The notes beneath the pieces are model-generated. The model made no database searches and was not told the origin of the DNA. It was given only the letters and a program-made list of their open reading frames with translations. Position numbers and translations under genes: made by a program. From assembly GCA_030017995.1 (NCBI GenBank), contig JASEGS010000003.1:1-64000 (forward strand): a DNA stretch of 64,000 bases. Direction: 5' to 3'. Below are positions 56,271-58,850 of the stretch, piece by piece (position 1 is the stretch's first letter; the number at the start of each line of letters is the position of its first letter). Source of the DNA: Thermodesulfovibrionales bacterium. GTDB taxonomy: Bacteria; Nitrospirota; Thermodesulfovibrionia; Thermodesulfovibrionales; Dissulfurispiraceae.

Positions 56271-57084
56271 ACAAACTGCACTCCTTGCAGTTCATTTTTG
56301 AACAAACCCTCGATATTCCCTGATGGCACAATGCAAAGTCATATTTAAGCGGGTCTTCTGAATCAAATTTTTTCAGCGACTCTGTTATCTCTACAGCCAT
56401 TTTCCAATCCTGAGATGATCGCCTTGTAAAACCGAGGCATTTAGATATGCGGGCTATGTGAGTATCAAGAGGGATTATGAGCTTACTCTTGGGAATTCCT
56501 TCCCAAATACCGAAGTCAATGTCCCTGTCCCTTATCATCCATCTTAGGAATAGATTCATCCTCTTGCAAGCGCTCCCCTTTTCAGGCAAAGGAAAGAACT
56601 GTAGAAAACCGACAGGCCTTATATTTTCGCCATATACAGGAGATGTGTCAACAGCAAGCAATCCATGAATCAAGCCGCCCAACCCTTCCCCGATGTTCGC
56701 ATCGGCGTCTTTATAGCCTTTCTTAAACAAGACCTCCATGCTTCCATGCCGCTTGAGTGTTTTACTCAAGAGATAGAAAAGGCAGAGAATATCTTCATTT
56801 TCATTAAACCTGTATTTGATGCCTGAAAATAAATGCCTTCGCTTCTTTAAATTAAAGCCTAAAAGAAAATCATGCGGGCTTTTGCCCATTATGGAAAGGA
56901 CTTTTCTGACTACAGGTTTGAATAAGTCAACTCTGCCGTATGCGAAACATGATGCAATAAAACCTGAGACCTCAATGTCTTCCGGCCTCTTATACTCGTG
57001 TGGGAATTCTATGGGATCGTGAAGAATACGCTCTTTAAAATTATATGTATTATAAAGCCTGTCGAGGGTTTGCTTTAAAGTCAT
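56257..57084 (-). CDS. TIGR02757 (DUF2400) family protein
   Basis: This 275-residue protein has [40 protein letters not shown] and [21 protein letters not shown], and ends with Cys-rich [12 protein letters not shown]. The family is related to DNA-glycosylase-like folds but is uncharacterised; a terminal Fe-S-like Cys cluster is seen. Its start overlaps the yajQ stop by 4 bases. Confidence 0.88.
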
Positions 57085-57578
57085 CTATAATTCGCAAACT
57101 GCAGGGCTATGCCGAAGTCCTTCTCCTTTAGCTTTGCGATAATAACCTGAAGGTCGTCTATTTTTTTGGCCTTCACCCTCACCTGATCCTTCTGAATCTC
57201 TGCATTCACTTTAAGCTTCATGTCCTTTATAAGTTTCACTATTTCTTTTGCCTTTTCCTGCGGAATACCCTGCTGGAGCGTAACAAGCTGCCTGACGGTA
57301 TTTCCAGCAGCCTGCTCTATTTTACCGTAGCTCAATGCCTTCAGAGATACGCCCCGCTTTACAAGCTTTGACTGCAATATGTCTATCACGCTCTTAAGCT
57401 TAAGCTCATCGTCTGAGAGGAGGGTAATAGTTCCCTTGCCCTTGTCAAGCTCGATATTGCTCTTGCTTCCCTTGAAATCAAAGCGCTGTCCTATCTCCTT
57501 CATTGCCTGATCAACTGCATTCAATACCTCCTGCATATCGACTTCGCATACAACATCAAATGAATGTTCATCAGCCAT
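57081..57578 (-). CDS. yajQ: YajQ-family nucleotide-binding protein
   Basis: This 165-residue protein has [35 protein letters not shown] and [31 protein letters not shown], matching YajQ closely. Members bind cyclic di-GMP or other nucleotides. It sits in an operon with the PsiE- and DedA-like genes. Confidence 0.95.
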
Positions 57579-57593
57579 TTTTAACCTCCAAAA

Positions 57594-58034
57594 TTATTGT
57601 TCAAGTTTCTGTGCCTTTACAGAAAGGTAGTAAGCAGCCATAAGAATTATAATAACGACTGCGCTCAACCCCATCTCGTATAGTTTTTCCACAGGCACAT
57701 GTTCCATAAAAGATGTCTGTGCCTCTATCAATAATATCCTCCTGACAGCCGCTATCATGCCGATGGCAAGGAATGGTCCAAGTATGAACTTCTGTTTTTT
57801 CAGAAACCTGATGATGGTCCATAGAAGTTCGAGGATTATCAGCGAAAGGAGCACATCGTTAACAAGATGCAGTATGGAATCCCTCGATGGGTGCAGAATA
57901 TTAAGCATCCCGTAATAAAGTATAAAACCGCATGCAATAAGCAGCAATAAAGCAGCTACTACATGGAAGATAATGTCCAAACTTACCAGAAATTTTCTAA
58001 ACCGCTCAGTCAGTTCTATTTTTTGCTGTTCCAT
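57594..58034 (-). CDS. PsiE-like membrane protein
   Basis: This 146-residue protein has four membrane helices, and VNDVLLSLIILELLWTIIRFLKKQK and IGMIAAVRRILLIEA match the phosphate-starvation-inducible PsiE family. The function is unknown. An AGGCGGAGGA Shine-Dalgarno lies 4 bases after the stop of the upstream small Cys-rich gene. Confidence 0.85.
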   Translation of the reverse strand: MEQQKIELTERFRKFLVSLDIIFHVVAALLLLIACGFILYYGMLNILHPSRDSILHLVNDVLLSLIILELLWTIIRFLKKQKFILGPFLAIGMIAAVRRILLIEAQTSFMEHVPVEKLYEMGLSAVVIIILMAAYYLSVKAQKLEQ

Positions 58035-58047
58035 AATCCTCCGCCTT

Positions 58048-58212
58048 TTAAATGTTTGTCAAGCTCTCAACAGTCGCCTTAATCACTTCTTCCGGATCGG
58101 GTTTGCATACAGGGCAATATGGCTCCCCCTTGTCCAGGGGGCATACATGCCCTCATTCAGGACAGCATACACACTTATCAAGCGGCTGTTCACAAACAGC
58201 ACATATATCCAT
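58048..58212 (-). CDS. Small Cys-rich zinc-ribbon protein, probable selenoprotein (UGA at 58155)
   Basis: The frame is 54 residues from ATG 58212 to TAA 58048, with a TGA at codon 20 (58155-58153). Before it lies MDICAVCEQPLDKCVCCPE and after it GHVCPLDKGEPYCPVC, ending in KATVESLTNI. The Cys spacing (CxxC, CxCCxxUxxxC, CxxC) makes the TGA read exactly where a Cys would complete CPxC-type ligands. A strong 6-bp hairpin (CCCCCT-GGACA-AGGGGG) with GG opening the apical loop lies about 14-30 nt after the UGA, matching bacterial SECIS geometry. It sits between dedA- and psiE-like genes, with 11- and 13-base spacings. Confidence 0.75.
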
Positions 58213-58223
58213 AATAAATTACT

Positions 58224-58850
58224 TTATTTCCCGGGAATATTTGCAGTTTTTTTGGAATCTTTTCTGTGCCATATTATATACCCGCAGATGAGTAAGACGC
58301 ATGCCAAAACGGCATAAAGGCTCCACTCCTTGCTTACAGCCAACACCTTTTCCTTGTTATTGCCTATAAAATATCCGACATACGCGAGCACCCATACCCA
58401 TATGGCTGCGCCAAAAGAAGTATAGAAACAGAACTTTTTGATATCCATTCTGGCAACCCCTGCCGGGAACGAGATGTAATGCCTGATACCGAGTATAAGC
58501 CTTCCAACAAAAGTGCTTATGCTGCCATGCGCCTGGAAAAAACGCTCTCCCTTTTCAAAATGACTTTTTGAGACCCCAAAGTATTTTCCGTATTTGATAA
58601 TAAACGGCCTGCCAAGGTAAAGGGCAATAACATAATTAAAGAGGGCTCCGAGAAGGCTTCCTGCTGTCCCGGATGCTATCACACCGAACCAGCTCATCTG
58701 TTTCTGCGAGATGAGATATCCTGCAGGAGGAATTACGATCTCTGAAGGAAGCGGGATGAAAGTACTCTCAATGAACATTAAAAATACAATCCCGCCGTAT
58801 CCCATGCTCCAAATAGTCTCAACAAGCCAATTAAAAAATGTATTCAACAT
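58224..58850 (-). CDS. DedA family membrane protein
   Basis: This 208-residue protein has the DedA/VTT hallmarks FIESTFIPLPSEIVIPPAGYL, GALFNYVIALYLGRPFI and FVGRLILGIRHYISFPAG. It is probably an undecaprenyl-phosphate or lipid transporter. First gene of the dedA - Cys-rich - psiE - yajQ - TIGR02757 operon. Confidence 0.92.
   Translation of the reverse strand: MLNTFFNWLVETIWSMGYGGIVFLMFIESTFIPLPSEIVIPPAGYLISQKQMSWFGVIASGTAGSLLGALFNYVIALYLGRPFIIKYGKYFGVSKSHFEKGERFFQAHGSISTFVGRLILGIRHYISFPAGVARMDIKKFCFYTSFGAAIWVWVLAYVGYFIGNNKEKVLAVSKEWSLYAVLACVLLICGYIIWHRKDSKKTANIPGK

Follow-up and report, generated by a model that had tools for sequence, protein, structure and literature searches.

A probable SECIS-dependent selenoprotein gene of 54 codons from a very small, cysteine-rich family in Nitrospirota

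The window is the whole stretch of DNA that was analysed, 64,000 nucleotides from a Thermodesulfovibrionales bacterium. Its minus strand, read from 58212 to 58048, contains an ATG-to-TAA frame of 54 codons with a single in-frame UGA at codon 20. The frame translates as MDICAVCEQPLDKCVCCPE-U-GHVCPLDKGEPYCPVCKPDPEEVIKATVESLTNI, followed by the stop. It lies between a VTT/DedA family gene, which ends 11 nt upstream, and a PsiE family gene, which begins 13 nt downstream and is followed by YajQ/DUF520 and DUF2400 genes. A plus-strand reading of 58048-58212 was rejected because nothing relevant is encoded there. The original prediction, made without naming a strand, listed a UGA with flanking CxxC motifs, a hairpin, a clean start and stop, and an operon position. 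All of these are present, on the minus strand. No convincing Shine-Dalgarno sequence was found ahead of the window ORF, and the clean start thus depends on the conserved position of the ATG. Gene finding or annotation that is blind to UGA recoding would be expected to cut the protein to 19 residues. The features of the locus are as follows.

58224 to 58850, minus strand: VTT/DedA family membrane protein, upstream gene
58048 to 58212, minus strand: putative selenoprotein gene of 54 codons, closed by TAA at 58050-58048, based on the frame and its homologues
58192 to 58203, minus strand: first CxxC (Cys4-Cys7), absent in L063 and L064
58162 to 58173, minus strand: C14-x-C16-C17, mostly but not strictly conserved
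58153 to 58155, minus strand: UGA codon 20, taken as selenocysteine (the 73 distinct homologues divide into 53 with UGA and 20 with Cys)
58141 to 58149, minus strand: His22-x-Cys24, with His22 invariant and Cys24 in 72/73
58136 to 58141, minus strand: putative SECIS 5' arm, CCCCCU
58131 to 58135, minus strand: putative SECIS apical loop, GGACA, starting 17 nt after the UGA; the GG(A) start is kept in most UGA forms
58125 to 58130, minus strand: putative SECIS 3' arm, AGGGGG, with a bias towards GGG for Gly29 in UGA forms
58105 to 58116, minus strand: last CxxC (Cys33-Cys36), in 73/73
57594 to 58034, minus strand: PsiE family, downstream gene; PsiE is also downstream in 6 other loci
57081 to 57578, minus strand: YajQ/DUF520, downstream gene and the commonest downstream neighbour among relatives (22 loci)

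Of 100 related genomes searched in six frames, 47 have a homologue, and in almost every case a single in-frame TGA falls on the same codon. Across the phylum Nitrospirota, a profile search gave homologues in 69 of the 296 sampled genomes. Among 73 distinct sequences, residue 20 is encoded by UGA in 53 and is Cys in 20, and no other residue or stop occurs at this site. The Cys20 forms are spread over several lineages. His22, Cys33, and Cys36 are invariant (73/73), and Cys24 is nearly so (72/73). The other cysteines are retained in 71 (Cys14), 70 (Cys4 and Cys7), 69 (Cys16), and 63 (Cys17) of the 73 sequences. The records of the relatives are mostly titled ‘Nitrospirae bacterium’, and one Cys form (L050) is filed as Deltaproteobacteria. 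Sampling outside Nitrospirota was thin, as the search around the Deltaproteobacteria-labelled genome covered only three genomes. Two entries were dropped from the family: L051, an unrelated 23-residue match, and a ‘Cys’ row for L063, a spurious pattern match. Separately, one Cys form (L041, from genome G086) carries an in-frame TAG where Glu30 is usual. Reassignment of TAG in this genome received no support on two contigs, and the codon is probably a mutation or an error.

Past the hairpin, over codons 31-38, the UGA forms have a pN/pS of 0.20. Thus, the codons beyond the UGA are translated and under selection. This value bears on a rival explanation in which the gene is a conserved 19-residue peptide or a pseudogene, translation truly ends at the UGA, and the similarity downstream is a relic or chance. 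The existence of degenerate copies in some genomes speaks for this alternative. The low pN/pS past the UGA, the invariance of C33 and C36, the Cys replacements, and the fact that none of the 73 sequences has a different stop at this position speak against it, and together they all but exclude it. In the degenerate copies (L062, L066, and L067), cysteines are missing, changes resemble frameshifts, or additional stops occur, which suggests that the gene is being lost in some genomes.

The genome from which the window derives has SelB above the curated cut-off, SelA, and a tRNA-Sec of 69 bits with the anticodon UCA. The SelD gene of this genome (L128, contig C5) itself has an in-frame UGA (SSCAG-U-ASK) and provides an in-genome positive control. 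SelB is found in 94 of 100 close genomes, including most of those with a Cys form. Its near-universal presence cannot separate UGA from Cys forms, and its retention in most Cys-form genomes indicates that Cys replacement is not merely a loss of the selenocysteine trait. Genome G123 has a Cys form (L113) and lacks both a SelB match and a tRNA-Sec scoring above the cut-off. Genome G061 (99% completeness) has a UGA form and tRNA-Sec, with no SelB match at E 1e-40.

In 34 of the 53 UGA-form genes, UGA is also the true stop, and UGA is thus not reassigned. A second rival explanation holds that the codon is decoded otherwise, through near-cognate readthrough or reassignment to Trp or Cys. Apart from the in-frame UGA itself, no support for this explanation was found. 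It is contradicted by the use of UGA as a normal stop in these genes, by a SECIS-type hairpin that is specific to UGA forms, and by a complete selenocysteine machinery, which leave it almost no room.

The hairpin, CCCCCU-GGACA-AGGGGG, occupies 58141-58125 on the minus strand, 14-30 nt beyond the first base of the UGA. Rules for bacterial SECIS elements (bSECIS) specify a loop of 3-9 nt with a G in the first two bases, a stem of 4-16 bp, a position 16-37 nt after the UGA, and a folding energy of at most -7.5 kcal/mol (PMC13188914). The window hairpin satisfies these rules, with 6 bp, the loop GGACA, a distance of 17 nt, and -11.1 kcal/mol. Across the family, the geometry is mostly satisfied, but the minimal hairpin of many members, folded as an isolated helix, reaches only about -6.3 kcal/mol, which is above the -7.5 rule, and a few are weaker. 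On its own, the window hairpin is unexceptional by shuffling (z -0.7 to -2.3). Single-sequence folding is thus insufficient, and it is the comparative data that raise the hairpin above chance.

The best hairpin obeying the bSECIS rules has a mean energy of -7.9 kcal/mol in UGA forms and -2.3 kcal/mol after synonymous recoding, whereas the corresponding means for Cys forms are -2.9 and -2.8 kcal/mol. The energies of UGA and Cys forms differ with a Mann-Whitney p of 9e-8. These recoding and Mann-Whitney figures were computed with the spurious L063 Cys row still included, and the hairpin p-values treat related sequences as independent. With a cut-off chosen post hoc, a hairpin is called in 48 of 53 UGA forms and in none of the 20 Cys forms. 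Well-supported branches force only four changes between Sec and Cys; the hairpin moves as expected, and the changes are too few for significance. Codon usage in the stem follows the same division. Gly29 is GGG in 44/52 of the UGA forms and 2/19 of the Cys forms, and Leu26 is CTG in 45/50 versus 4/15. Synonymous divergence in UGA forms is 0.48 at the hairpin codons versus 0.86 just beyond, and in Cys forms it is 0.86 and 0.81 in the corresponding regions.

Synonymous recoding and the comparison of Sec with Cys forms were used in place of classical covariation. The latter gives a weak signal, since C and G make up almost the whole stem and the codons fix it. In the covariation analysis, 96% of cells are paired, versus 44-75% when the pairing is slid, and changes on both sides occur in only one pair (5 cells). 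By the recoding and Sec/Cys comparisons, the hairpin likely behaves as a bacterial SECIS, following the Sec/Cys difference and held more tightly than the protein alone requires, an inference drawn from sequence alone. Five of the 53 UGA forms (L112, L115, L116, L124, and L030) have only a weak hairpin, or an alternative one, close to where it is expected. The pairing register also shifts in some divergent lineages, with stems of 8-10 bp in L120 and L122 and 9 bp in L063. L112, L115, L116, and L124 are UGA forms from one other family of the class, and their weak hairpins are in a different register. These four might use a variant SECIS.

The start of the gene has an unusual setting in many relatives. 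An exact TATAAT lies 3-12 nt ahead of the start codon in 39 of 70 family members, mostly at 5-8 nt (L022, L018, and L096 are examples). The same placement is seen in only 4 of 193 other genes of those loci, although the control starts were taken as the first ATG of each ORF, and some may be miscalled. A Shine-Dalgarno-like motif is present in only 9 of 71 members. The TATAAT feature is common to UGA and Cys forms. A sigma-70-type promoter box at this position would start the transcript at or beside the ATG. Given this spacing, the messages that bear the box are probably leaderless, and leaderless mRNAs are likely in many relatives, a conclusion for which there are no transcript data. The window copy lacks a TATAAT box and is likely transcribed by read-through from the DedA-type gene 11 nt upstream.

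The promoter box bears on a third rival explanation, in which the ORF is a selenium-responsive leader. The UGA would sense selenocysteine availability and control the downstream operon, and the peptide would be secondary. In support of this model, the ORF of many relatives carries a separate promoter box at the ATG, and same-strand genes follow closely, with a gap of at most 100 nt in 34 of 49 cases. However, purifying selection acts strongly on the peptide past the UGA, and the whole protein is retained in Cys forms, which lack the UGA. The downstream genes are also unrelated housekeeping genes (YajQ, PsiE, RarA-type AAA ATPase, NfeD, TadA-type deaminase, and YceD), and the downstream ORF is on the opposite strand in 19 of 68 loci, some of which are antisense artefacts. 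A leader function is very unlikely.

The preferred reading is a genuine SECIS-dependent selenoprotein gene, from a Nitrospirota family of very small proteins rich in Cys. This reading is very likely, with a probability of about 0.9. The UGA-spanning frame, the Sec/Cys exchange, the SECIS-type constraint, and the selenocysteine machinery are supported by the sequences. Actual selenocysteine insertion, metal binding, and a redox role are inferences, and there is no protein-level evidence for insertion. In the proposed decoding, the ribosome would arrive at the UGA at codon 20, and SelB with Sec-tRNA would bind the hairpin, in which the GG loop begins 16-18 nt past the UGA. Selenocysteine would be inserted in place of termination, by the route usual in bacteria, and translation would stop at codon 55.

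The original prediction of a selenoprotein is supported. It was to be refuted if homologues ended at the UGA or had no Cys there, or if the genome lacked SelB and tRNA-Sec. Neither is the case: homologues continue past the UGA and have Cys in 20 of 73 sequences, and SelA, SelB, SelD, and tRNA-Sec(UCA) were all found. Its proposed covariance check of the hairpin gave modest two-sided covariation, and the recoding and Sec/Cys-tracking tests were passed.

The function of the product is less certain. The core pattern is C17-P-E-U20-G-H22-x-C24-x8-C33-P-V-C36. By analogy, the stretch from C17 to C36 looks like a pair of metal knuckles. The most likely product is a small metal-binding protein of the cytosol, with a zinc-ribbon or rubredoxin-like double knuckle, although this is deduced from sequence alone without metal data. 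Sec20, beside His22 and with C24 and C33-x2-C36, may serve as a metal ligand, as the nucleophile that pairs with Cys17 in a CxxU motif, or as both. Position 20 is always U or C, H22, C33, and C36 never change, and C24 is lost once, whereas C17 and the CxxC near the N-terminus are missing from some members. A metal site that includes Sec20 and the last CxxC is thus favoured over a pure CxxU pair, and a role as metal ligand or in metal-linked redox chemistry has a slight edge as an inference.

The competing view, which concerns function only, is a metal-free redox enzyme or thiol-selenol carrier in which Cys17-x2-Sec20 is the active pair and the other cysteines form disulfides. Most UGA forms have the CxxU motif (C17 in 63/73), which often serves as a redox motif in catalogued selenoproteins (PMC13188914). 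Against this view, 10 of 73 sequences lack C17, while U/C20, H22, C33, and C36 are kept in all and C24 in all but one. The CxxC-x12-CxxC layout is also typical of metal knuckles, and some members give partial zinc-ribbon and rubredoxin-like matches. A metal-free redox role is accordingly a little harder to sustain, but it remains a serious possibility.

The zinc-ribbon layout of the original prediction is plausible and unproven, as Pfam models match some members weakly and do not match the window protein. Its further proposal, that selenium replaces a Cys ligand or a redox Cys, is supported as regards the Sec/Cys exchange, and the choice between ligand and redox role is not settled. An AlphaFold model from a restricted alignment has low confidence (pLDDT 70, pTM 0.34), and a Foldseek search with it gave no structure match. 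Neighbouring genes in relatives include YajQ (22 loci), PsiE, RarA-type AAA ATPase, and NfeD (7 each), as well as TadA-type deaminase and YceD. They are too variable to serve as a clue to function, and no single pathway is indicated. A bolder reading of the metal-site model is possible. In it, selenium would be a permanent, non-catalytic metal ligand of a ribbon fold in a family of about 50 residues with mostly leaderless mRNAs, and UGA would act as Sec and stop in one message.

The family is apparently undescribed, although most subscription papers and preprints lay outside the literature searched and an earlier description is not excluded. No selenoprotein model of NCBIfam release 20, which includes the NF/TIGR models named in Table 1 of PMC13188914, matches any member of a 44-sequence set. 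No Pfam family matches the window protein, and PHROG gave no convincing match for two representatives. Among the 119 prokaryotic selenoprotein families of a 2026 inventory (PMC13188914, Table 1), none was recognised as this family by name, motif, or model. None of the new families from deep-Sep was found to fit, and a literature search by motif letters found nothing relevant. GOS_A is a further hypothetical selenoprotein (PMC9312934) for which there is no model, so that no comparison by model is possible.

The analysis thus adds an apparently undescribed, putative selenoprotein family, among the smallest, in roughly a quarter of the sampled Nitrospirota genomes. Natural Sec and Cys versions in close relatives make a role of selenium in a metal-knuckle-like site testable. 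The gene would also be a compact case of UGA serving as both Sec and stop within one message of about 50 codons. In many species, a distance of only about 57 nt separates the apparently leaderless start and the codon for Sec.

The family shares with catalogued prokaryotic selenoproteins a UGA inside the coding region, a SECIS directly downstream, Cys homologues, and a CxxU-type motif (PMC13188914). The nearest known protein in concept is the FmdB-family putative regulatory protein (TIGR02605), likewise a small CxxC...CxxC protein in which Sec is possible in the knuckles. However, its listed Sec motif is UxxU, and it has no match at E up to 1 among the 44 members. The CC/Se motif family selenoprotein (NF041239, listed with CxxU) and the dual CXXC motif small protein (NF041197) are also Cys-rich bacterial selenoproteins, but neither model matches any of the 44 members at E up to 1. 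The zinc-ribbon and rubredoxin-like families of Pfam (PF13240, PF13248, and PF21349) each match six members, with best E values of about 0.001-0.004, and none matches the window protein. The likeness lies in C17PEU20G...YC33PVC36, which parallels the CPxCG...CPxC double knuckle. Unlike these Pfam families, the Nitrospirota family adds C4xxC7, C14xC16, and the conserved His22/Cys24.
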